Shown here in pieces: positions 1-10,330 of a stretch of 10,330 nucleotides of DNA. Both the position numbers and the translations under genes were made by a program. This DNA is from Acidimicrobiales bacterium (GTDB taxonomy: Bacteria; Actinomycetota; Acidimicrobiia; Acidimicrobiales; UBA8190). The stretch's first letter is position 1. Each line of letters begins with the position of its first letter. Below the pieces are notes generated by a model. That model saw nothing but the letters and a program-made list of their open reading frames with translations, did not search any database and was not told the DNA's origin. The stretch covers positions 1 to 10,330 of the forward strand of contig JASHZK010000359.1 in NCBI GenBank assembly GCA_030042575.1, in the 5' to 3' direction.

Positions 1-40
1 TCTGGCTAGCCTGAGGAGGCCACCGGACAAGGAGCGCTTC

Positions 41-424
41 ATGGAGGTCGTCCCCAAACCGCCCTCGGTCAAGGGTCCGGCCGACATGTTCACCGGAGAC
101 GTCTGGTTCGACACCATCGCCCGAGGTCAGCCGCCGGCACGGATCAACGTGACCACCGTGCGCTTCACCCCGGGGGCTCGCACCGCCTGGCACGCCCACA
201 CGCTGGGCCAGACCCTCTTCGTCACCGAAGGCCGAGGGCTGGTGCAGTCCCGAAACCAGCCCGTGGTGCAGATCCGCGCCGGTGACGTCGTCTACGCGCC
301 CGACGGCGAGGAGCACTGGCACGGCGCTGCCCCCGACCACTTCATGAGCCACCTGTCGGTGACGGAGGGCGACGCTCACTGGGGTGCCCACGTCAGCGAT
401 GCGGAGTACCTCAGCGGCGGGTAG
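41..424 (+). CDS. Small cupin protein, hydroxynitrile-lyase-like/manganese cupin
   Basis: A 127-residue single-domain cupin. Cupin motif 1 runs from G45 (GARTAWHAH), giving candidate metal ligands H51, H53 and Q57. Motif 2 starts at G81 (GDVVYAP) and gives H92, within EHWHGA. From memory, this His-His-Gln-His set and the GARTAWH..LGQT and HWHGAAP blocks match the small bacterial cupins related to the Granulicella hydroxynitrile lyase, which bind Mn(II); Gln instead of the usual cupin Glu is normal for that branch. The length fits a one-domain family member. The start is supported by AAGGAG at 29-34, six bases before ATG. The real substrate is unknown: many relatives are annotated only as cupin or carboxymuconolactone-decarboxylase-associated proteins. 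No signal peptide is visible, so it is probably cytoplasmic. It converges on the aminotransferase. Family is confident; cyanohydrin lyase activity is only a possibility. Confidence 0.9.
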   Translation: MEVVPKPPSVKGPADMFTGDVWFDTIARGQPPARINVTTVRFTPGARTAWHAHTLGQTLFVTEGRGLVQSRNQPVVQIRAGDVVYAPDGEEHWHGAAPDHFMSHLSVTEGDAHWGAHVSDAEYLSGG

Positions 425-466
425 CCGACGGGCACTGGGCAGCCCGGGGGCCGTCCCCCTCGTCGG
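425..466. terminator. GC-rich hairpin between convergent genes
   Basis: The 48-base gap between the cupin and the aminotransferase contains CCGACG (425-430) and its inverse CGTCGG (461-466). Nested inside is GGGGG (446-450), a four-base loop, then CCCCC (455-459). The location between two converging stop codons suits a shared terminator. There is no T tract on either strand, so classical intrinsic termination is not shown and the two stems may be alternatives to each other. In such GC-rich DNA short inverted repeats arise by chance. Confidence 0.35.
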
Positions 467-472
467 CCGGCG

Positions 473-1648
473 TCAGGCCACGGGCGAGAGCCGGCTCACG
501 TGGTCGGCCATCGCTCGCAAGGCGACCTCGATGTCGCTCACCGAGCACGCGTACGACAGGCGCAGGTACCCTTCGCCCCACTCCCCGAAGGCGGTACCGG
601 CGAGGCAAGCCACCCCGGCCTCCTCGAGCAGCTGCTGCTGGAGCACGTCGGCGGGCACCCCCAGGCTCTTCACGTTGGGAAAGGCGTAGAAGGCGCCTTC
701 GGGCATGACGCAGGTGATCCCCGCCATGGCGTTGAGCCCGGCGACGATCAAGTCGCGGCGCCGGCGGAACTCGGCCACCATGTCCTCCACCGGTTGCCAC
801 GGTCCCTCCAGGGCTGCCTGGGCGGCCACCTGGCTGAAGGCCGACGTGCACGACACCGAGTTGACCACCAGCTTGGTGATCGGTTCGACGAGCTCGGTGG
901 GGAAGACCCCGAAGCCCAGACGCCACCCGGTCATGGCGAACGTCTTCGACCACCCGTCGAGGAGCACGGTGCGACTTTCCATGCCCTCGACGTCGAGGAC
1001 GCTGTGGTGCCGGTCGCCGTAACGGACCGACGCGTAGACCTCGTCGGTGAGCACGACGATGTCGTGACGCAGGCACAGCTCGGCGACGGCTTCGCAGTCG
1101 GCCTCGCTCAGCGCGCTGCCGCACGGATTGTGAGGCGAGTTGAGGATCAGGAGCTTGGAACGAGGGGTGATCAGCTCGGCCAGCTCGTCCGGATGAATGC
1201 GAAACCCGTTCTCCTCCCGCAGCGGCACCGCCACCGGCGTGGCACCGGCGAAAGCGGAGATCGACTGGTACATGGGGAACCCGGGATCCGGGTAGAGCAC
1301 CTCGTCACCCGGGCCGCACAGGGCCAGGATGGTCCAGAACATGATGGGTTTGGCCCCCGGGGCGATGATCACCCGATCGGGTGACGCCTGCATGCGCCCG
1401 CTGCGCTCCAGGTACTCGCTGACCGAGCGCCGAAGCTCGGGGAGGCCGGGGGAGGGCACGTAGTGGGTGTACCCGCCACGCAGCGCGTCCACGGCGGCCT
1501 CCACGATGTGGGCCGGGGTGGCGAAGTCGGGCTCGCCGATCTCCAGATGCACGATCCGCCGGCCGGTGGCCTCCAGCTCCTTGGCCTTGGCCAGCACGGC
1601 GAAGGCCGACTCCGTTCCCAGCTTGTCCATGTGGGGCACCAGATCCAT
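473..1648 (-). CDS. Pyridoxal-phosphate aminotransferase, class I/II
   Basis: A 391-residue fold-type I aminotransferase that moves amino groups between an amino acid and a 2-oxo acid using pyridoxal phosphate. The expected landmarks are in order: IGEPDF near 37-42 (substrate side), GAK at 98-100 and YPDPGFPMY at 119-127, SPHNPCG with N174, TDEVYA with D202 and Y205, the Schiff-base lysine K235 in SKTFAMTGWR, and the carboxylate-binding R363 in YLRLSYA. The length is typical of subgroup I aspartate/alanine-type enzymes. An open frame continues upstream to 2023, but that extension lies over the divergent transketolase gene and has no family features. ATG at 1648 is preferred; ATG at 1630 (MDKLGTES) is possible and neither has a strong ribosome binding site. 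The sequence does not fix the substrate: aspartate, alanine/valine and methionine-type aminotransferases share these motifs. Confidence 0.93.
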   Translation of the reverse strand: MDLVPHMDKLGTESAFAVLAKAKELEATGRRIVHLEIGEPDFATPAHIVEAAVDALRGGYTHYVPSPGLPELRRSVSEYLERSGRMQASPDRVIIAPGAKPIMFWTILALCGPGDEVLYPDPGFPMYQSISAFAGATPVAVPLREENGFRIHPDELAELITPRSKLLILNSPHNPCGSALSEADCEAVAELCLRHDIVVLTDEVYASVRYGDRHHSVLDVEGMESRTVLLDGWSKTFAMTGWRLGFGVFPTELVEPITKLVVNSVSCTSAFSQVAAQAALEGPWQPVEDMVAEFRRRRDLIVAGLNAMAGITCVMPEGAFYAFPNVKSLGVPADVLQQQLLEEAGVACLAGTAFGEWGEGYLRLSYACSVSDIEVALRAMADHVSRLSPVA

Positions 1649-1660
1649 GGACCCATCTTG

Positions 1661-1709
1661 GACCTGGTGAACCCCGGTTTCCCAGAGCCCCAGGTCAACG
1701 GACCAGGTC
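1661..1709. promoter_or_regulatory. Inverted repeat in the aminotransferase/transketolase divergent gap
   Basis: The 165-base gap between the two divergent starts contains GACCTGGT (1661-1668) and its exact inverse ACCAGGTC (1702-1709), 33 bases apart. Another AGGTC copy lies at 1692-1696. It could be an operator for divergent control or an RNA stem in the leader of the right-hand gene. I see no convincing -35/-10 pair in the gap. An eight-base inverted repeat at this GC content can occur by chance, so the call is weak. Confidence 0.2.
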
Positions 1710-1801
1710 GTACCCGGCGGATCGACCAAGAGCCCCCTGGCCGACCGCCGTCCGTGGCGACGACAATGAAGAAGACGCCCAGGGACGATCACCGGAGGTG
1801 C

Positions 1802-1807
1802 AGAGGA
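1802..1807 (+). promoter_or_regulatory. Ribosome binding site deciding the transketolase start
   Basis: AGAGGA lies six bases before ATG 1814. An in-frame ATG also exists at 1766, and the frame is open back to 1463, but those have no comparable site and the upstream translation looks non-coding. A stronger GGAGG at 1794-1798 is 15 bases from the ATG, which is too far for normal use. Confidence 0.55.
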
Positions 1808-1813
1808 TCTGCC

Positions 1814-4228
1814 ATGTCCATCCTCGAACACGGGGCAACGGCCGGATCCCCGCCTTTCCGGGGGGAGCCGGCCGGCGCCTCCGAGGTGCACCGGCTGCGG
1901 GAAGCGGCCGAGAGCGATTTCCACCACTACGAGGTCCTGAAAGACCTCGTCGACGAGTGCATCGACCTTCCCCTCAACTATCGCCAGAGCGGGCATCCCG
2001 GAGGGTCGCGGTCCAAGGTCCACCTGTTCCTGGCCCTGCTGTTGTCAGGGGCCATGCGCTGGGACATCCGACGTCCGTGGTTGCGCTTCGCCGACCGGTT
2101 CGTGCTGGCCGCCGGACACACCGCCCCACTCGTCTACTCGACGCTGGCCGTGCTGAACGAAGCCTTGCGGGTCCGCCATGAGCGCACCGGCGAGGAACGC
2201 TTCGCTTTTCCCTGCCAGGCCCGCTTCGCCCTCACCTGGGAGGACCTGCTCGGCTTCCGACACCGCGGCGGGCTTCCCGGCCACGCCGAGATGGGCGGCA
2301 AGACGTTGTTCCTCAAGTACAACACCGGGCCATCGGGCCACGGCGTGGCTCCTGCCGCCGGAGAAGCGCTCGCCCTGAAGCTGGCCGGGGCGACCGGTGT
2401 GAAGGTGTTCGTCGTGGAGGGCGAAGGCGGTCTCACCCCCGGAGCCGCCCACGAGACCAAGAACACCGCCTGGGGCCTCGGCCTCTCCGACCTGGTGTTC
2501 CTGATCGACTGGAACGACTTCGGCATCGACCCTCGACCTGCTTCGAGCGTGGTCAACGGGACCCCGGCGGACTGGTTCGCCCCCTACGGATGGCGGGTGA
2601 GCGGTACCCACCGAGGCATGGAGTGGGGCCCGGTCACCGAAGCGGTGCTGGAGGCGGCGTGCGGCGACAACCCCTCGCATCGGCCCAGCGTGGCCTGGTT
2701 CAAGACGCGCAAAGGCCGTGGTTACGGCAAGTACGACGCCTCGAGCCACGGCACCCCCTGGCCCATGCACGCTCCCGAGTTCTGGGCTGTGCGCCGGCAG
2801 TTCATGGCCCGCTACGGCGTCGAGTACGAGGGCATGGAGGACCCGCCACCCACCGACGCCGACGCCCTACGGGCTCAGGAAGCAGTCAACCTGCAGATCG
2901 CCCTGAGCGTGCTCCGCCGCGACGACGAGCTGGTCGACTGGCTGTCGGACCGGCTGGTGTCCCTGGCCGGGGGCGTGCCCGACGCCCTGGGGGGAATGCA
3001 TCTCCGACAGGGCTCGTCCACCGTGTTCGCCGACCGTCGTTTCTTCGATTTCGAGCGCTATCCGGCCGGGATGTGGAAGGCGCCGGGGGAGAAGGCTGCC
3101 AACCGCCAGGCGCTGGCCACATGGGGTTCGTACGTCAACTCGCTGGGCAAGGCCGACTACGGTCGCCCGCTCTTCGTGGCCTGCTCGGCCGATCTGGCCG
3201 ACTCCACCAACGTCTCGGGTTTCGCCAAGGGCTTCGGCGACGCCGAGGGCTTCGGCTGGTACGACCGCGACACCAACCCCAGCGGTGCGCTTCTTCCCAC
3301 GGAGATCACCGAGTTCGCCAATTCCGGATTGATCACCGGCATGGCCAGTGTCAACTTGGCCGAGGACCCCTTCGAGGACTTCGACGGCTTCTGGGGGGCA
3401 TGCTCGACCTACGGGTCCTTCTCCTATTTGAAGTACGGGCCCATGCGCCTGTTCAGCCAACTGACCCAGGACTGCGAGCTGCGCACCGGGAGGGTGTTGT
3501 GGGTGGCCGGCCACTCCGGACCGGAGACGGCCGACGACTCGCGCACCCACTTCGGCGTGTTCGCACCCGGGGTGACGCAGCTGTTCCCCGAGGGGTCGGT
3601 CATCGACCTGCACCCCTGGGAGCACAACGAGGTCCCCGTGGTCCTGGGGGCCGCCTTCGCCCGTGCCGCCCCCATCGTGGCCCTCCACCTCACTCGGCCG
3701 GCCATCGAGATCCCCGATCGGGCCGCTCTCGGCCTGCCTTCACATTTCGCCGCCGCTCGCGGGGCCTATGTGGTGCGACCCTGGAGCGACGACCGGCCCC
3801 GGGGCGGCACGGTATTCCTGCGGGGCACGCTCCCGAGCGCCAACCTGGTGGAGGCCCTGCCCGAGCTCGAGCGCCTCGGTCTCAACGTCAAGGTGGTGGC
3901 CGCCATAAGCCCTCAGCTCTTCGCCGCCCAGGACGCCGCCTACCGGTCTTCGGTGGTCTCGGCCGCCGACGCCTTCGACTCCATGGTCATCACCAATGGC
4001 GCCTTCGCCTTGATGCGGCACTGGGCCTCGGGACCTCTGGTTCGGGAGTACTCCCTCTCTGCCGACTTCGACGACCGCTGGCGCACCGGCGGCACGCTCG
4101 AGGAGGTCGTCGAGGAGGCGCATCTCGACACCGACCACATCGTCGGCGCCATCGAGCGCTTCGTGGCCGAACGGCGACAGCGTTTACGGCACTGGCGCGC
4201 CCTCCTCGAAGCGGCCGAGCAGGCTTAG
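1814..4228 (+). CDS. Long transketolase-like thiamine-diphosphate enzyme
   Basis: An 804-residue protein with the three-part transketolase plan. The N-terminal cofactor half has QSGHPGGSRSK at 58-68 (H61 matches the conserved SGHPG histidine), GHTAPLVYSTL at 101-111, TGPSGHG at 171-177, and the cofactor/metal signature from G203-E204-G205 to N234-D235 (WNDFGID). TRKGRG at 298-303 and SHGTPW at 311-316 follow. The middle domain has LPTEITEFANSGL, in which E500 aligns with the catalytic glutamate of the IREHAM motif, then H567 and H579 near SGPETADDSRTH, and R628 in LTRPA. The C-terminal domain starts about 650. Family knowledge says such enzymes move two-carbon ketol units between sugar phosphates. 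Two features are unusual: about 804 residues instead of roughly 620-700, and GEG in place of the classic GDG metal motif, a conservative change. It may be a distinct branch with another substrate. No other pentose phosphate gene is adjacent. Confidence 0.85.
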   Translation: MSILEHGATAGSPPFRGEPAGASEVHRLREAAESDFHHYEVLKDLVDECIDLPLNYRQSGHPGGSRSKVHLFLALLLSGAMRWDIRRPWLRFADRFVLAAGHTAPLVYSTLAVLNEALRVRHERTGEERFAFPCQARFALTWEDLLGFRHRGGLPGHAEMGGKTLFLKYNTGPSGHGVAPAAGEALALKLAGATGVKVFVVEGEGGLTPGAAHETKNTAWGLGLSDLVFLIDWNDFGIDPRPASSVVNGTPADWFAPYGWRVSGTHRGMEWGPVTEAVLEAACGDNPSHRPSVAWFKTRKGRGYGKYDASSHGTPWPMHAPEFWAVRRQFMARYGVEYEGMEDPPPTDADALRAQEAVNLQIALSVLRRDDELVDWLSDRLVSLAGGVPDALGGMHLRQGSSTVFADRRFFDFERYPAGMWKAPGEKAANRQALATWGSYVNSLGKADYGRPLFVACSADLADSTNVSGFAKGFGDAEGFGWYDRDTNPSGALLPTEITEFANSGLITGMASVNLAEDPFEDFDGFWGACSTYGSFSYLKYGPMRLFSQLTQDCELRTGRVLWVAGHSGPETADDSRTHFGVFAPGVTQLFPEGSVIDLHPWEHNEVPVVLGAAFARAAPIVALHLTRPAIEIPDRAALGLPSHFAAARGAYVVRPWSDDRPRGGTVFLRGTLPSANLVEALPELERLGLNVKVVAAISPQLFAAQDAAYRSSVVSAADAFDSMVITNGAFALMRHWASGPLVREYSLSADFDDRWRTGGTLEEVVEEAHLDTDHIVGAIERFVAERRQRLRHWRALLEAAEQA

Positions 4229-4317
4229 CCGTGGAGGCGGGCCCATCTCCGAGCGGTCGTCCGTCCACCCGGTGACCGCAGCCGAGGTGGAGGCGCAGTC
4301 CCCGCCCCGCTCATCGC

Positions 4318-4584
4318 TCACCCACCTGGCCCTGGGTCTGGAGGGACCGGCGCACCCTGCTGGCGGCGGTCACGACCGGTACCGTCGAAGCCGGGAACCT
4401 GCTGGCGGCGACGGTCCACCATGATCTCCTCGCCACTGAAGACGCGGTCGACGACCTGCCCGTCGGACAGGCGCCGGACACGGACACCCACCGGGAGCGC
4501 CTCGTCCACCACGAAGCCCTCGCTCCAGCCCTGTCGGTAGTAGTCCCACACACACACCGGCGTGCCCACAGCCAGGTCCGTCAT
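4318..4584 (-). CDS. Small conserved-type protein of unknown function, probably beta-barrel
   Basis: An 88-residue protein starting MTDLAVGTPVCVWDYYRQGW. It has alternating short hydrophobic stretches, a VRVRRLSDGQVV segment near 34-45 and EEIMVDRRR near 52-60, then a Gln/Gly/Pro-rich tail. The pattern resembles small SH3- or Tudor-like barrel proteins common as hypothetical genes in Acidimicrobiia; this is pattern resemblance, not a family assignment. The frame continues upstream to 5826, but that part is the antisense of the hydrolase and is not credible. A competing overlapping frame on the same strand (4311-4553) is Ser/Trp/Arg-rich and looks like a shadow. GGGTGGG ends about six bases before the ATG and could be a weak ribosome site. 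It diverges from the hydrolase across 69 bases and converges on the transketolase. Role unknown. Confidence 0.6.
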   Translation of the reverse strand: MTDLAVGTPVCVWDYYRQGWSEGFVVDEALPVGVRVRRLSDGQVVDRVFSGEEIMVDRRRQQVPGFDGTGRDRRQQGAPVPPDPGPGG

Positions 4585-4653
4585 CGCCGGTCCCACCCTA
4601 CGACGCCCCGGCGAGGTTCGCCCCGAGGTCCCGAACCACTCGTAGGATCGCTG

Positions 4654-5907
4654 GTGGTGAATGTCGGCGGCGTTCCGTGGGTCCCGGGTCCCCTCAACAC
4701 GGTTTGGCGGAGGGCTCGGCAGGTGGCGGCCGACCCACGGGCTCTGGGAATCCTGCAGGCCGCCCCTCGCACTGCCGCTTTTCTGTCGCGCGCCGCCGCT
4801 CGCAGCGCCGGCGCCCAACTCGACGATGCCATCGTGCCGGTGCGGGCCACACCGGCACTGGCCGCTCAGGTCCTCCTGGACGAAGTCATGATCGCCGCCT
4901 TCCGCCACCCGCGCCTTCTGCCCGGGGACGCCGACTACCCCCGGGCCGCCGCCGATCTGGCCGCCACCCGCGACGTGCTCGCCGCCGCTGGCTGTCTGGC
5001 CGATCCCGCCTCTTACCACGGCGCGCCCACAGCCCCGGATCTGGTCGTGCACCGCCACGGCCAGGTGCCCGGCATGCGCTACGAGCATCTGGCCTTTCCC
5101 AGCGGCTGGGAACCGGGTCCCGACGAGCCCGGACGCGACCGCTGGCTCTCCTTCACCGCCAACCGCACGGCCCACGCCTGGATCGCACGGGCCCGGGCCG
5201 ACACGCAGTGTTGGCTGGTGTGCGTGCACGGCTTCGGCATGGGATCGAACCCCCTGCTCGATCTGAACGCCTTTCGCGCCGCGCAGCTGGTGCACCAGGG
5301 CCTCAACGTCGCCGTGGTCGTGCTGCCCATGCACGGCCGGCGCGCCGGTGGACGTGCCCCGGGGGAGGGGTTCATGTCGATCAACCTGGTCGACTCCATG
5401 CACGGGCTGGCCCAGGCCGTCTGGGACGTACGGCGGGTGGTCGCCTTGTTGCGGAGGGACGAGGGTGCCGCCACCGTCGGCCTCTTCGGCCACTCCCTGG
5501 GCGGCCACGTAGTCTCCCTGGCCGCCGCCCTGGAGGACGACCTGGCCTGCGTCATCGCCGGGATCCCGGTCGTCGACCTCCCCGATCTGTTCCGACGCCA
5601 CAGCCTGCCCTCCATAGCCCGGCGGGCGGAAGCCCACGGTGTGCTGGGCTCGCTGGCCGACGATGTCCATCGGGTGGTGTCGCCTCTGTCGCTGCGCTGC
5701 CGGGTCCCGCTCGAAGGGAGGTTCGTCTTCGGTGGGCTGGGTGATCGCATGGCCACTTTCGGACAGGCCCGTCGTCTGTGGCTCCACTGGGGCCGGCCCC
5801 GATTGGCCACGTACGAGGGCGGCCACGTCGGCTTCTACTGGTCGGGATCAGTCCGCCGCTTCGTGGCCGAGGCTTTGGCCGATACCGGTCTGTTGGCCGC
5901 CGCCTGA
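4654..5907 (+). CDS. Alpha/beta hydrolase, ABHD18-like
   Basis: A 417-residue serine hydrolase. The first 130 residues are largely helical and Ala-rich and precede the catalytic fold. VCVHGFGMG at 189-197 matches the HG oxyanion segment. GLFGHSLGGH at 276-285 is the nucleophile elbow with S281. GGLGDRM at 360-366 gives the likely acid D364, and EGGHVGF at 388-394 gives the catalytic H391. The long N-terminal region and the spacing resemble the uncharacterised ABHD18-type family, so the substrate (ester, lipid or other) cannot be named. No signal peptide is seen. Start GTG 4654 is chosen because AGGA at 4644-4647 is six bases upstream; GTG 4657 is equally possible. TAGGAT at 4643-4648 covers the same bases and could instead be a -10 box of a near-leaderless transcript. 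The oxidoreductase follows 81 bases downstream on the same strand. Confidence 0.85.
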   Translation: MVNVGGVPWVPGPLNTVWRRARQVAADPRALGILQAAPRTAAFLSRAAARSAGAQLDDAIVPVRATPALAAQVLLDEVMIAAFRHPRLLPGDADYPRAAADLAATRDVLAAAGCLADPASYHGAPTAPDLVVHRHGQVPGMRYEHLAFPSGWEPGPDEPGRDRWLSFTANRTAHAWIARARADTQCWLVCVHGFGMGSNPLLDLNAFRAAQLVHQGLNVAVVVLPMHGRRAGGRAPGEGFMSINLVDSMHGLAQAVWDVRRVVALLRRDEGAATVGLFGHSLGGHVVSLAAALEDDLACVIAGIPVVDLPDLFRRHSLPSIARRAEAHGVLGSLADDVHRVVSPLSLRCRVPLEGRFVFGGLGDRMATFGQARRLWLHWGRPRLATYEGGHVGFYWSGSVRRFVAEALADTGLLAAA

Positions 5908-5949
5908 CGGCGACAGCTTCCCGGTTCGGCTCGCCACCGCCCTGCTCCA

Positions 5950-5980
5950 TTGGCCGGCACCGGCTCTCGTCGTCTATAAG
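5950..5980 (+). promoter_or_regulatory. Possible promoter giving a leaderless oxidoreductase transcript
   Basis: TATAAG (5975-5980) is one base from the TATAAT consensus and rare in this GC-rich DNA. It sits eight bases before ATG 5989, so transcription would begin at or next to the start codon. TTGGCC (5950-5955) is a weak -35 candidate, with a 19-base spacer that is slightly long. No good ribosome binding site exists apart from AAGG at 5978-5981, which fits leaderless translation, common in actinobacteria. This is inferred only from sequence. Confidence 0.35.
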
Positions 5981-5988
5981 GCTGCACC

Positions 5989-6987
5989 ATGCCCGCCATC
6001 CGCATGGGCGTCCTGGGGGCCGCTCGCATCGCCCCTGCCGCCGTCATCAACCCGGCTCGCTCGGTCACCGAGGTCGCCGTCACCGCCGTGGCGGCCCGAG
6101 ATCAGCCACGGGCACGGGCGTTCGCCACCAAGCACGGCATTCCCCGGGTGCTGTCCGACTACCGCACGCTGGTCGAGGATCCCGAGATCGACGCCGTGTA
6201 CATCCCCTCGCCCAACGGCCTTCACGGTTACTGGACGAAGGCGGCCTTGGCCGCCGGGAAACACGTGTTGTGCGAGAAGCCTTTTTTTTTTAATGATACG
6301 GCGACCACCGAGATCTACACCGCAGCCCGGGCCGCACCGCGACAGGTGGTGATGGAGGCTTTCCACTACCGCTACCACCCCCTGTTCACCCGCGCCCTGG
6401 ACCTGTTGTCGGAGGGCGCTATCGGCGGGCTACGCCGGATCGAGACCTGGATGTGCTTCCCACTGCCGCGGTTCAAGGACATCCGGTGGCAGTTGGACCT
6501 GGCCGGTGGCTCGACCATGGACGCCGGCTGTTACGCCATCCACATGGCGCGCCATCTGTCCGGCACCGAGCCCAGGGTCACCTCGGCTCGAGCCTGGCTG
6601 CACTCGCCCGGGGTCGACCGTCTCATGGAGGCCGACCTCGACTTCGGCGGCGAACTCACGGGGAAGATCACCACCTCGATGTGGTCGGCTCACGTCATCC
6701 ACATCGGCTTCACCGTGCGGGGCGACGCCGGCCAGTTGCGGGTGCTCAACCCTGTCGCTCCGCACGCGTACCACCGGTTGGTGCTCCGCACCAAGCGGCG
6801 CACCGTGGAGCACGCCGTGCGCAGGCCCACCTACGAGTTCCAGATGGAGGCTTTCGCCAACGCCGTGCTACGCGGGGTGGCCCCGATCACCGGCCTCGAC
6901 GACGCGGTGGCGAACATGTCGGTGATCGACTCCGTGTACCGGGCTGCCGGGCTCGAGCCCCGGCAGCCCACTCCGGTCGGTGCCTAG
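5989..6987 (+). CDS. Gfo/Idh/MocA-family NAD(P)-dependent oxidoreductase, locally corrupted by adapter
   Basis: A 332-residue dehydrogenase. The N-terminal Rossmann fold opens with MGVLGAARIAP (6-16), and HVLCEKP ends with the family lysine K97. The C-terminal sheet domain has MEAFHYRYHP (122-131) and the GGSTMDAGCYAIH motif with D178 and H185. The GAARIAP and MEAFHYRYHP wording is typical of the branch with dihydrodiol and NADP-dependent xylose dehydrogenases; the true sugar or polyol substrate is unknown. Residues 99-111, FFFNDTATTEIYT, are translated Illumina P5 adapter plus poly-T and are not real protein. The flanking halves fit one gene, and the distance from EKP to MEAF (23 residues) is about normal from memory (22 in human dihydrodiol dehydrogenase). 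The adapter therefore probably overwrote native bases rather than being inserted. Both outcomes keep the frame because the foreign stretch is 39 bases. ATG 6004 is an alternative start. Confidence 0.88.
   Translation: MPAIRMGVLGAARIAPAAVINPARSVTEVAVTAVAARDQPRARAFATKHGIPRVLSDYRTLVEDPEIDAVYIPSPNGLHGYWTKAALAAGKHVLCEKPFFFNDTATTEIYTAARAAPRQVVMEAFHYRYHPLFTRALDLLSEGAIGGLRRIETWMCFPLPRFKDIRWQLDLAGGSTMDAGCYAIHMARHLSGTEPRVTSARAWLHSPGVDRLMEADLDFGGELTGKITTSMWSAHVIHIGFTVRGDAGQLRVLNPVAPHAYHRLVLRTKRRTVEHAVRRPTYEFQMEAFANAVLRGVAPITGLDDAVANMSVIDSVYRAAGLEPRQPTPVGA
6282..6320 (+). other. Illumina P5 adapter with poly-T: assembly artefact
   Basis: Ten consecutive T (6282-6291) are followed by a perfect 29-base match to the Illumina P5 flow-cell oligonucleotide (6292-6320), beginning AATGATACGGCGACCACCGA and ending GATCTACAC. 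Host sequence resumes at 6321. The first T may be native, as the third base of the Pro98 codon. The low-GC run contrasts sharply with its surroundings. The resulting peptide FFFNDTATTEIYT is a contamination signature seen in many database proteins. It is not a promoter, transposon end or natural insertion. Confidence 0.98.
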
Positions 6988-7002
6988 CGCCTCGCTGGCA
7001 CC
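6979..7002. terminator. Hairpin between convergent oxidoreductase and secreted-protein genes
   Basis: GGTGCC (6979-6984) pairs with GGCACC (6997-7002), and AGCG (6986-6989) pairs with CGCT (6993-6996). This gives ten base pairs with one bulged T (6985) and a three-base loop. The left arm covers the TAG stop of the oxidoreductase. A wider exact inverted pair, CGGCAGCC (6961-6968) and GGCTGCCG (7015-7022), encloses it and includes the last codons of both genes. It is symmetrical and lies in a 22-base convergent gap, so it could serve both strands. It lacks a T tract, so termination is inferred from shape and place. Confidence 0.5.
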
Positions 7003-7009
7003 TGTCGCC

Positions 7010-8566
7010 CTAGTGGCTGCCGAAACCGGCACCACCTGAGCCGCCGCCACCACCTGGGCCACCGCTTCGGGCACCACGACCAGCGCCACCGCCACCACCG
7101 GTGCCTCCGTCGCGTCCCGCAGGCGCACCGCCGTTCCCCGCTGCGCCCGGCGACGCCGGGAAGGACCTCGGATCGCCGTTGCCCGTACCGATCGACCCCG
7201 GGTCGGAATATCCGTGCTCGGCACCGGAGGACGTGGCGGTCGTCGTAGCCGATTCACCGCGGGTCCCGCTGCTCGTCGAGCCCGGGCGCTGGCTGGACGA
7301 GCGGATGCCGGCCGAGATCGAAGTCCCGGCGCCGTGGGGGTCGCTGTTGCCGATGCCGTGGAGGTAGCCGGCGGGGCGGAGGCTGCGCGTGGCCGGGGGG
7401 GACACCGGGCAGCCCGAGGGGACTCCGCTCCACGGTCGGGAGTTGAACCAGGTGGTGGCCGACGTGGGCAACACGTAGACGAACTGGGCGTCGAGGTCGG
7501 TGAGATCCGGATCGACGGTGCCGGAAGCCACGACGTCGTCACCGGTCAGGCCGGCCAACGTGGTGCCGCTCGGCGAGTAGGTCGTCCCCGGCCCGACGTC
7601 GACGGTCCACCAGAACCCCTGGCTGTCCTGGAGGACGAAGGAGGTCGAGCCGACGGACACCACGGTGCCGTTGAGCTGGGTGAGCATGATGAAGACGGTT
7701 CTGGCCGTGGGCGTCGACGCACCGGGTACGAGCGTCACGAACACGTGCTCACCGCTGACCACGCCGGTGGGGGGCGTGGGGGCGCCGAATTCAAAGTACT
7801 TGGTGGTGGTGGGCGTGGCGATCGTCTCCGTCGTCCCGTCCCGCTCCTCGAGCACGAAGCTGGTCCCCGGGGTGACCGAACCGACCAGGCCGGTAACGAA
7901 GTTGCCGGACGGTGGCGGCGTGGTGGGCGGCGTGGGAGGGCTCTGCACGTGGATGGCGACGGCGTCCAGCGCCACGTGGTCGGCGTCCACGGTGCCGAAG
8001 GCGTTCACGAGGTCACCGGTGGCCACCGTGGCTCCGGTGGGGAAGTAGACCGTGGTGCCGTTGACGTCGAGGTCGATGGTGCGCTGGAAGCCCTGCTGGT
8101 CGGTGACGAGCAGGTACGTCGACGTGGCCGAATCCACGGTGCCCGAGATCTGGGCGAGGAGAATGGTGACATTGGCAGCAGTGAGGGTGGAGGCTCCCCA
8201 AACCAGTTGGACGATCACGTGCTCGCCGGCCACGACTCCCGCTGGCGTGACACCGGTGCCCGGTTCGCTGTAGGTCGTCGATCCGTTGGTCGTGATGGCC
8301 TGCGGGGTGTTGCAGCCCGGCACGTCGAGGGTGAAGCCGCTGCTCGTCGGTGCCGGTGTGGCTGCCACCGTCCCCTTGACCGTTGCGTGCCAACCGCGCC
8401 AGTTGAAGGGTCCGGAGTACGAGGGACCACCCTGGAAGCCCGCGGCCCGTGGTTGGGCAGCAGCCGCGGCGGCCGTTGCCCCGACCAGTCCGGCGGCCAG
8501 TCCGAGGCTGAGCGATGCGGCGGCCAGGCATCTGGCCGGATTCCATCGACGAGTCGTACGCGGCAT
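7010..8566 (-). CDS. Secreted protein with duplicated DUF5666-like modules and Gly-rich tail
   Basis: A 518-residue exported protein. Residues 1-38 form a signal peptide: RTTRRWNPAR, a long Ala/Leu core, then an AAAAAA-Q cleavage zone. Two related modules follow, about 60-208 and 222-367, joined by a Pro/Thr linker (209-220). GEHVIVQLVWGAS (114-126) and GEHVFVTLVPGAS (272-284) correspond, as do ISGTVDSATSTYLLV (140-154) and LNGTVVSVGSTSFVL (298-312), and QQGFQRTIDL and SQGFWWTVDV. The GTV...F.L..Q.G...TV rhythm resembles the small beta domains of DUF5666. Residues about 385-518 are Ser/Thr then Gly-rich, low complexity, ending GGAGFGSH. The start at 8566 is set by AAGGGAG six bases upstream and by the signal peptide; the frame extends only nine codons further. 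It diverges from the sigma factor and has a matching promoter element, suggesting it is a target. Function unknown; cell-surface or extracellular. Confidence 0.85.
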   Translation of the reverse strand: MPRTTRRWNPARCLAAASLSLGLAAGLVGATAAAAAAQPRAAGFQGGPSYSGPFNWRGWHATVKGTVAATPAPTSSGFTLDVPGCNTPQAITTNGSTTYSEPGTGVTPAGVVAGEHVIVQLVWGASTLTAANVTILLAQISGTVDSATSTYLLVTDQQGFQRTIDLDVNGTTVYFPTGATVATGDLVNAFGTVDADHVALDAVAIHVQSPPTPPTTPPPSGNFVTGLVGSVTPGTSFVLEERDGTTETIATPTTTKYFEFGAPTPPTGVVSGEHVFVTLVPGASTPTARTVFIMLTQLNGTVVSVGSTSFVLQDSQGFWWTVDVGPGTTYSPSGTTLAGLTGDDVVASGTVDPDLTDLDAQFVYVLPTSATTWFNSRPWSGVPSGCPVSPPATRSLRPAGYLHGIGNSDPHGAGTSISAGIRSSSQRPGSTSSGTRGESATTTATSSGAEHGYSDPGSIGTGNGDPRSFPASPGAAGNGGAPAGRDGGTGGGGGAGRGARSGGPGGGGGSGGAGFGSH

Positions 8567-8572
8567 GGCAAG

Positions 8573-8579
8573 CTCCCTT
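8573..8579 (-). promoter_or_regulatory. Ribosome binding site of the secreted repeat protein
   Basis: On the minus strand AAGGGAG lies six bases before ATG 8566. It fixes that start over the upstream in-frame ATG at 8593, which lacks such a site and would lie almost at the predicted transcription start. Confidence 0.7.
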
Positions 8580-8597
8580 TTCCGTTCCTCCACCGGG

Positions 8598-8629
8598 GTA
8601 CATCGCCCTCGTGGGTCCGCTGTTACAGG
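8598..8629 (-). promoter_or_regulatory. Predicted ECF-type promoter of the secreted protein
   Basis: Reading the minus strand, TGTAACA (plus coordinates 8621-8627) is followed after 15 bases by CGATGTA (8599-8605). The whole 32-base block matches the plus-strand block at 8688-8719 at 26 of 32 positions. GGCGATGTAC is identical in both, and so is CGGA just after the -35-like part. Transcription would begin near 8592, leaving a leader of about 26 bases that contains the ribosome binding site. Two-block form and spacing fit an extracytoplasmic-function sigma promoter, though the exact hexamers are not a consensus I can name. Confidence 0.65.
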
Positions 8630-8687
8630 ACTGTCTTCAGGCCCGACGGTGAGGAGCCACGAGGCAACCGGCCCACGGGAAAACTGC

Positions 8688-8719
8688 CCTGTGACAACGG
8701 AGCAACTACGGCGATGTAC
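8688..8719 (+). promoter_or_regulatory. Predicted ECF-type promoter of the sigma factor operon
   Basis: TGTGACA (8690-8696), a 15-base spacer and CGATGTA (8712-8718) form the plus-strand copy of the element found upstream of the divergent secreted-protein gene. The -10-like block ends 12 bases before ATG 8731, so the transcript would be leaderless or have a leader of only a few bases. This agrees with the lack of a good ribosome binding site before the sigma gene. It implies that the sigma factor drives its own operon. Confidence 0.65.
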
Positions 8720-8730
8720 TGGACGGTGGT

Positions 8731-9273
8731 ATGGATCCGGATGAGACCGACCTCGTCACCGCCGCCCGAGCGGGCGACGAGGACGCATGGGAAGTCCTCT
8801 ACCGGCGCGTCTATCCGCGGCTGCGGGCCTATCTCGCCCGCCGACTCGGCCCTCTGGACGCCGAGGACGCCGTGCACGAGACCATGACCAGAGCCGTCGC
8901 CGGCCTCGATCGCTACCGGGTCGGCCCCGCCGGATTCGAGGGCTGGCTGTTCGGCATCGCCCGCCACGTCTCCGCCGACCACCACCGCCACCGCACGCGG
9001 GTCAAGCGCCGGCCGGTGGCGACGGCGCCCGATCCCCAAGCTTCGGGCGAGCCCCACGAGGCCCTGGTCGTGTCCGAGGAGCACGAGCAGGTGCGTCGTG
9101 CCTTCGGAGCCCTGAGCGCCGACGACCGTGAGCTGCTCGAGCTGCGGGTGGTGGCCGGCTTGAGCGCCGAGCAGGTGGCCGCCGTCCTCGGGAGACGGCC
9201 GGGAGCGGTGCGCACGGCGCAGTCGCGGGCGCTGGCACGGCTGCGTGAGTTGTTGGAGAACGACGATGGCTGA
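8731..9273 (+). CDS. ECF-type RNA polymerase sigma factor
   Basis: A 180-residue sigma-70 family protein with only regions 2 and 4, the size and layout of an extracytoplasmic-function factor. Region 2 spans about 12-90 and includes YLARRLGPLDAEDAVHET (core binding) and GFEGWLFGIARHVSADHHR (promoter melting and -10 recognition). After a short linker rich in Pro and Ala, region 4 spans about 118-175. Its helix-turn-helix is LSAEQVAAVLGRRPGAVRTA (144-163), followed by the basic SRALARLREL, which would read the -35 element. ATG 8731 is where the family normally begins. The last eight bases overlap the start of the next gene (ATGGCTGA), so the two are translationally coupled. No extra C-terminal sensor domain is present, so control probably lies in the neighbouring membrane protein. 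The subgroup is not assigned. Confidence 0.93.
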   Translation: MDPDETDLVTAARAGDEDAWEVLYRRVYPRLRAYLARRLGPLDAEDAVHETMTRAVAGLDRYRVGPAGFEGWLFGIARHVSADHHRHRTRVKRRPVATAPDPQASGEPHEALVVSEEHEQVRRAFGALSADDRELLELRVVAGLSAEQVAAVLGRRPGAVRTAQSRALARLRELLENDDG

Positions 9274-10126
9274 TCGGCGAACGCCTTCACCGTCGGACGA
9301 GGAGCTCCTGGCGCGCTTGCACAACGTCATGGCCCCCGGAGCGCTGCAGCCACCCCCCGCCGCCGTGCACGACGTGCGGCTCCTCCTGGCCGGCAGGAGC
9401 CTCCCCTCGCGTCGTCCGGGGCCGAGGCTGTCCGGCCGGCGACCCCTGCTGAGCGGCTGGCGCGCCCGGCTGGGGGTGGCCGGAGCGACGGTGGGAGCCG
9501 TGGTGGTGGCCGGGGGCACTGCTTTTGCCCTGGGTGCCCCCGTGCCCGAACCAGTGCGAGCCCTGGCCTACGACCTCGGGCTGCCGGTCACGCCACCTGC
9601 GGTGGTCCAGGTCCAAAGTGCCGCCCAGACGGTGCGGTCCGACCTCGCTCCCGCCTCGGGGGCCAGCCGGGCCACCACCGTTCGCGACACCCGTGCCCTG
9701 GGCAGCGCCCTGCGCGGCCTGGAACCGAACGAGCTTCCCTCGGTGCGCTCGTCCGAGCGTGTCTACGCCCGAGCGTGCCGCGACCTGGCGGCCCCCTCGG
9801 GCATGTCCGCGCCCCCCTCCAACCAGCGCCGCCAGGCGCAGGGTTGCACGTCGAGCGGTTCCGTCGCCCCGACGCCGACGCCAGGCAACCCGGCCCGAGC
9901 GAGAGGCGGGTCGCCCGGCGGGGGACGGGGCACACCGCCTGGCGGTCGCACCGCGGTCACCACCACCACCCCGCCCGGCTCCCGGCCGACCTATCCGCCG
10001 GGCGGGTCGAACCGGCCCCGGGGCGCTGGGAGCGCGCCGGGCTCGGCGCAGGGCTCCGTCGAGGGGGCCGGGGGCGGATCCGGACAGGGCACCGACCGTT
10101 CGCGTGGTCGACCCCGTCCCAGCTAG
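9266..10126 (+). CDS. Single-pass membrane protein, candidate anti-sigma factor
   Basis: A 286-residue protein coupled to the sigma gene by an eight-base overlap; GGAG at 9255-9258 lies seven bases before ATG 9266. The N-terminal 67 residues are cytoplasmic by the positive-inside rule (many Arg at 44-67) and include the acidic-helical SDEELLARLHNVM (10-22). A membrane helix spans about 69-90 (LGVAGATVGAVVVAGG, then TAFALG). The outer part begins with APVPEPVRALAYDLGLPV and later becomes disordered Pro/Gly/Ser/Thr/Arg, with only two cysteines (C171, C194). There is no HxxxCxxC zinc anti-sigma motif, so it is not a classical ZAS-domain protein. Position, coupling and topology still make an anti-sigma role the best guess, with the N-terminus holding the sigma factor and the outer tail sensing or anchoring. 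It could instead be an unrelated envelope protein of the same operon. Confidence 0.75.
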   Translation: MADRRTPSPSDEELLARLHNVMAPGALQPPPAAVHDVRLLLAGRSLPSRRPGPRLSGRRPLLSGWRARLGVAGATVGAVVVAGGTAFALGAPVPEPVRALAYDLGLPVTPPAVVQVQSAAQTVRSDLAPASGASRATTVRDTRALGSALRGLEPNELPSVRSSERVYARACRDLAAPSGMSAPPSNQRRQAQGCTSSGSVAPTPTPGNPARARGGSPGGGRGTPPGGRTAVTTTTPPGSRPTYPPGGSNRPRGAGSAPGSAQGSVEGAGGGSGQGTDRSRGRPRPS

Positions 10127-10330
10127 TCGCGGTCGCCGGCGCCGGTCGGCGCAGCCGGGTGACTCCCCGGTCCGCGCAAACCCCGAGGTCAACAGTCCGC
10201 CGATACCTCTCCTCCCCGCCGCGCCCGGCCCAGGCGCGTGGATCGCCGACACCGCCCTCGAAGCCCGAGGACCTGAGCTGTTGCTGGGCGTGGGTGGAGG
10301 TCCCTATCGTGCTGGTCAGCAGCAAGGGGG
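10127..10330. other. Window end with no gene that can be supported
   Basis: These 204 bases follow the membrane protein stop. CCGGG (10155-10159) and CCCGG (10166-10170) form a short five-pair stem with a six-base loop, a weak terminator candidate without a T tract. Two plus-strand frames stay open to the window edge, one from GTG 10160 and one reading AWIADTALEARGPELLLG from about 10236. The first has G/C-rich third positions but an odd composition; the second looks more protein-like but has no clear start. Neither can be called without sequence beyond the edge. Confidence 0.4.

Follow-up and report, generated by a model that had tools for sequence, protein, structure and literature searches.

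An apparent in-register overwrite by a flow-cell oligonucleotide in a Gfo/Idh/MocA dehydrogenase gene, with counterparts in other deposited genomes

How does a complete sequencing-platform oligonucleotide come to lie inside an open gene, in the interior of a contig, and does it displace the native bases or take their place? The question is raised by a stretch of 10,330 nucleotides from an Acidimicrobiales bacterium (contig JASHZK010000359.1, positions 1 to 10,330), which is referred to here as the window.

The block in the window and its host gene

Positions 6282-6320 of the window consist of ten T (T10) followed by a perfect copy of the P5 29-mer, 39 nt in total (Table 1). T10 plus P5 is what we take to be the whole oligonucleotide grafted on Illumina flow cells, and Illumina's own grafted oligos presumably carry the ten T. 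With up to 3 mismatches allowed, P5 matches the window nowhere else, none of 200 shuffled sequences gives a match, and a search of the whole assembly (422 contigs, 2.39 Mb, up to 3 mismatches) returned the same single copy, while P7 was absent from that assembly at up to 2 mismatches. The block is joined directly to the genome inside the contig: neither an index nor a read-primer site follows P5, and there are no N bases and no duplicated flank at the block. The preliminary description had reported a perfect 29-base P5 after ten T inside a Gfo/Idh/MocA gene and had called the 39 nt a sequencing artefact, and the exact letters, the shuffles and the Pfam assignment all agree with it. It had missed that the ten T belong to the oligo itself, that the index is absent and that the case is one of a recurring class.

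Table 1. Features of the block in the window and of a P7 counterpart
Feature	Position	Strand	Remarks
T10, spacer of the grafted oligo	6282..6291	+	its first T falls on the wobble position of codon Pro98; read directly
P5 29-mer	6292..6320	+	0 mismatches; single copy in the assembly
Codons 99-111	6283..6321	+	read as FFFNDTATTEIYT; the 13 replaced residues
Host gene, Gfo/Idh/MocA family oxidoreductase	5989..6987	+	332 aa
P7 oligo in the portal gene of Klebsiella phages Marfa (L290, NC_048798.1) and EI (L288, MN106245.1)			

The reading frame of the host gene stays open across the block, where the translation runs CEKP-FFFNDTATTEIYT-AARAAPRQVVMEAFHYRYHP; the codons touched are 99-111 plus one wobble base. 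Pfam PF01408 is matched with 81.6 bits (cut-off 24), residues 4-122 covering positions 1-118 of the 120 in the profile, and two C-terminal Gfo/Idh/MocA models are matched with 57.2 bits (cut-off 27) and 29.7 bits (cut-off 22.9). With PF01408, the C-terminal domains and 80% identity to its closest listed homologue, the protein looks like an ordinary member of the family which departs from it at residues 99-111 only, and these are the artefact. Judged from its sequence, the gene thus appears to be that of an ordinary Gfo/Idh/MocA dehydrogenase in which 13 codons have been replaced, and the peptide FFFNDTATTEIYT is without any biological meaning.

In the passages of a report on solid-phase amplification that deal with the primers fixed to the slide, ten T precede the P5- and P7-derived sequences (PMC11123353). 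The block in the window shares this T10+P5 layout, although the slides described in those passages are home-made, unlike Illumina flow cells. What the block has in common with read-through adapter contamination is that a sequencing-platform oligo stands in a deposited assembly; in read-through tails, however, an index and a read-primer site follow and the tail lies near a contig end, whereas P5 in the window joins the genome directly, inside the contig, and replaces its own length. A description of an in-register overwrite by a flow-cell oligo was not found in a search of open-licence PMC papers and a few preprints.

Register of the block in the window and at other sites

For comparison, 7,750 of 7,997 scored candidates were accepted as homologues at E <= 0.001, and the best 120 of these 7,750, the window protein included, were listed. 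Against P0002, the closest other protein among the best 120, the host protein aligns over 327 residues with 80% identity and no gap, and P0003 (79%) and P0004 (77%) do not differ from it in length across the site; among the 24 aligned proteins there are several that are 1 or 2 residues shorter there. Within the 13 residues P0002 agrees at F99 and N102 only. Seven of them (F100, F101, D103, A105, T106, Y110 and T111) occur in none of the 119 homologues in the respective columns (best 120 of 7,750), and at positions 101, 105 and 106 all 119 have the native residues A, E and A. At the DNA level, the distance between the same codons is 39 nt in six of eight relatives and 36 and 33 nt in the other two. 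The preliminary description had considered that native bases were overwritten and not displaced, that any motif reported in the peptide would be false, and that an alignment of residues 85-135 would tell replacement from addition. That alignment has 13 residues replaced and none added, the gap-free comparison with P0002 and the equal lengths of P0003 and P0004 speak for overwriting, and the seven residues that are never seen in the 119 homologues mark the peptide as false. An insertion of 39 nt was accordingly rejected, as there is no gap against the homologues. It therefore seems, at the level of the protein, that the replacement is in register; the exact register in the organism of the window is taken from its relatives because no copy from the same species was found.

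As P0003 has E-I at the place of E108-I109, we also considered these two residues as native. This was rejected, since among the 119 homologues (best 120 of 7,750) E108 occurs in 8, I109 in one, and the adjoining Y110 and T111 in none.

The same anatomy, T10+P5 or T10+P7 joined straight to the genome inside a contig, was sought in at least 120 genome loci with P5, in 30 viral loci where T10+P5 is followed by a base other than T, and in at least 120 viral loci with T10+P7. The 280 oligo occurrences among the matches listed comprise 254 adapter tails near the locus end, 3 full adapters inside, 9 direct junctions near the end, 13 direct junctions inside and 1 occurrence cut by the end, where "near the end" is measured from the end of the locus, which need not be the end of a contig. 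The sequence before the oligo is T-rich noise at many terminal tails and mostly ordinary at internal direct junctions. P5 at up to 1 mismatch is found in 3 of 397 genomes, namely that of the window, a second in which a full adapter is terminal, and a third with an internal direct junction (L493). Sites in WFK, KAW1E185, G4507 and a second site in EI were rejected as members of the direct class because they are full adapters, and the locus from E. coli 4114 (L306) was dropped, the oligo being absent there at up to 2 mismatches.

Replacement of its own length was found at 12 of the 13 sites tested, a count which includes the window and takes Marfa and EI as one site; only E. coli D7 departs from it. 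In Marfa and EI, 34 nt stand for 34 nt in comparison with HMGUkp2 and Clarke_MM3, with no gap within 100 nt. Vibrio phage D173 (P7) and D68 have no indel between them over 1,434 nt and differ by 16 substitutions, of which 15 lie within the 34-nt block. D173 differs from 219E41.1 by 21 substitutions, again with 15 within the block; the flanks could not be placed in D279. The P7 site of L169 measures 34 nt against L409 (flanks 99-100%) and 34 nt against L410, where 18 nt are unaligned, the value against L411 (31 nt, with 86 nt unaligned) having been left out of the count. Phage Palo (P7) has 34 nt against RHEph02, with flanks of 76-77%. Among the P5 sites, 39 nt are replaced in L099 (three relatives), in L030 (two relatives, with 12 and 40-44 nt beside the block unaligned), in L143 (75 of 79 relatives align up to the block edges, and all 75 agree), in L139 (protein gap-free, left flank unaligned for 110 nt) and in L493, from a genome of the window's own order (three relatives). 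L142 has no gap around the block in 79 of 79 relatives by protein; at the DNA level its phage matches are weak, and it was not placed against L316. Beside lacZ in E. coli 30224_1#48, 89 nt stand for 89 nt at the P5 site, with scattered further differences. In hscC of E. coli D7 (L291, NZ_CP010150.1), the 39 nt of the P5 block face 37 nt; this site is out of register and has a blended consensus.

The direct sites L028, L068, L073, L093, L111, L138, L141, L154, L158, L174, L192, L205, L211 and L271 stand outside this count, as do L089, where there is an N gap, and L300 in Proteus phage Saba, for which the open frame alone is available. L138 has no match in E. coli genomes, the relatives of L093 reach at best 66% over several hundred bases so that its flanks were not placed, and the site of L068 is repeat-rich.

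Since 34 is not a multiple of 3, the frame provides a second test of register for P7, applied to loci where the frame is open for 80 codons or more on either side of the block. Replacement predicts a block length of 1 mod 3, which is what five of six such loci (Marfa, EI, D173, Saba and Palo) need; L211 is the sole misfit. The rule misfires in GC-rich sequence, where it calls the window shifted. The preliminary description had attributed the open frame of the host gene to the length of 39 bases. The frame is indeed open, but the length by itself is not the reason, because 34-nt P7 blocks leave genes in frame as well when they replace their own length.

Two observations concern the neighbourhood of P5 blocks. 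In L089, the P5 block around 3592-3661 has five N and a repeat of its flank beside it, the mark of a scaffold that was joined across an artefact of this kind. In L068, around 3335-3480, a dispersed repeat of about 60 nt adjoins the block, and it has many copies in the respective genome (G044).

Native sequence under the oligonucleotide and the origin of the blocks

The last 15 nt of the oligo were scored against the native DNA at the same place, and the score was ranked among all positions on both strands of the relative's locus. Such a 3' match is supported at 9 of the 12 scored sites; D7, where 11 nt are shared near the oligo 3' end by eye, though offset, and L142 were left out of the scoring. 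A p-value combined over the sites was set aside, because it would use ranks as if they were p-values and pick the best relative at each site. Rank 1 is reached by Marfa (13/15, of 2,970 positions), D173 (14/15, of 2,838), L099 (13/15, of 8,826), L030 (14/15, of 8,232) and L169 (11/15, of 7,590). L493 has 12/15 and rank 2 of 5,826 in the nearest relative, and 9/15 and rank 48 of 8,700 in another, and in L089 the native copy that is repeated by the scaffold contains 12 exact nt of the oligo. Support is moderate only for Palo (10/15, rank 2 of 2,540) and for L143, which has 10/15 (9 exact) and rank 8 of 6,840 in L414, while its closest relative L413 gives 8/15 and rank 72 of 4,050. L139 is unsupported with 7/15 and rank 470 of 8,652, and E. 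coli 30224_1#48 has no match across the last 7 nt of the oligo. Nor is a match supported in the window, where the three relatives of the same genus share 4-6 of the final 12 nt and the whole set of eight 2-6, with a best rank of 296 of 5,046. The eight DNA relatives are distant (56-68% amino acid identity), and as the scores of L493 and L143 drop in more distant relatives, the result for the window is weak evidence either way.

We propose that an oligo grafted on the flow-cell surface may prime inside the library insert at a partial 3' match during cluster amplification. Its extension would yield a truncated template (T10-P5-genome) that shares its cluster with the full-length parent. The read from the far end would then pass through genome and afterwards through 39 cycles dominated by the truncated template (the complement of P5, then ten A), or, with P7, through 34 cycles of oligo. 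Once the truncated template is exhausted, the bases of the parent would resume at the correct position. Because the true sequence is kept on both sides, an assembler could accept such a read and end trimming could miss it. A mechanism of this kind would account at once for the ten T and the lack of an index, for the position inside the contig, and for both the register and the 3' match.

The alternative closest to this proposal places the mispriming in the tube: the short P5 and P7 PCR primers would prime the insert during library PCR, their products would dominate the site, and the assembler or polisher would take over the oligo letters position by position. The same junction would result, the flow cell would contribute the ten T either way, and blended consensus sequences are indeed present in E. 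coli D7 and 30224_1#48, both of which are complete chromosomes. A molecule made in the tube would, however, form a cluster of its own, so that its read would not return to native sequence, and de novo assembly needs reads that span both native sequence and the ten T. That T-rich noise often precedes terminal adapters, and ordinary sequence the internal direct ones, also argues against mispriming in the tube, which we consider unlikely. It is still less probable that the block arose by ordinary read-through, with the adapter tail of a contig end being joined to a neighbouring contig by the assembler or scaffolder. Read-through is by far the commonest kind of occurrence (254 of the 280 among the matches listed), and the five N beside the block in L089 reveal that such joins happen; yet the window has no index, read-primer site, N or duplicated flank, and a join would keep the exact length only by luck, for which reasons this origin was rejected for the window. 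A native origin of the 39 nt in the organism has a next to negligible chance. In its favour are the open frame and the intact gene, but the letters are identical to a commercial oligo including its spacer, with no match in 200 shuffles, and 7 of the 13 residues are found in none of 119 homologues (best 120 of 7,750).

Mispriming on the flow cell within a mixed cluster is the best explanation of the block in the window, to which, on the sequence comparisons available, we would give a probability of roughly 0.7. The identity of the oligo, the register and the 3' match are observed at the loci named above; that the priming occurs on the flow cell and not in the tube, and in mixed clusters, is what we infer from them. 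Against this explanation stand the unsupported 3' match in the window, residues Y110 and T111, which no homologue shares (119 compared, best 120 of 7,750), as well as the missing 3' match of L139 and E. coli 30224_1#48, the broken register of D7 and the weak score of L143 in its closest relative. Outside its account remain the T runs before the oligo, which range from 5 to 15 and are not always 10, the two extra bases which separate the ten T from P5 in L030, the two odd E. coli cases, and L211.

The artefact is thus a recurring overwrite by a flow-cell oligo and not plain adapter contamination. In general terms, it seems rather likely that flow-cell oligos misprime at natural partial 3' matches and, via mixed clusters, overwrite exactly 39 nt (P5) or 34 nt (P7) in register. 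The sites would then be predictable from the genome sequence, could recur at one position in many records and could keep the frame, and they would stand in GenBank and RefSeq isolate records as well as in MAGs.

Consequences for deposited records and further observations

The same P7 block at the same site as in D173 is present in L299 (OZ196032.1) and ten more Vibrio phage records, which amounts to 11 of 18 near-identical records (those covering at least 80% of the stretch), while 7 are without it. D65 carries the block except for its first two T, where the bases are native. Should the position be determined by the native sequence, the same fault can return in many records of one species, as in these phages, and mimic a real variant.

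Screens for tails at contig ends would miss the overwrite form because it lies inside genes, its flanks are correct and the frame can stay open. An overwrite within an open-frame gene therefore places false residues in proteins, such as the seven in the window that are never seen in 119 homologues (best 120 of 7,750). An artefact peptide that links unrelated database entries, as anticipated in the preliminary description, does exist where the oligo is read on its reverse strand: L139 and L142 code for two viral proteins which are unrelated and yet both contain VDLGGRRIIKKK. Annotation is damaged as well. hscC of E. coli D7 is marked as frameshifted, and the portal gene lacks an annotation in Marfa over the stretch that codes for it in relatives, and in EI it is broken into two at the position of the block. 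A simple screen would be to look inside contigs for T10 joined to P5 or P7 with no index.

Full adapters with index are also embedded in deposited phage genomes (L297, MN106245.1 around 64562; L293, L294 and L295), and in G4507 a tail-lysozyme gene is split beside a full adapter. In phage Saba (MN062188.1, NC_052978.1), the direct T10+P7 junction lies in the gene for the distal tail protein, with the frame open.

Some further features of the window may be mentioned. An ORF on the reverse strand (7010-8593) codes for 527 aa with a glycine-rich tail and has no Pfam match. The long forward ORF at 1463-4228 has Transketolase_N as its only Pfam match, and as its start overlaps an aminotransferase ORF on the opposite strand, the true start is probably further in. 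At 8731-9273 (forward strand) an ECF-type sigma factor is encoded, followed by an ORF without Pfam match which possibly encodes the regulator of this sigma factor.
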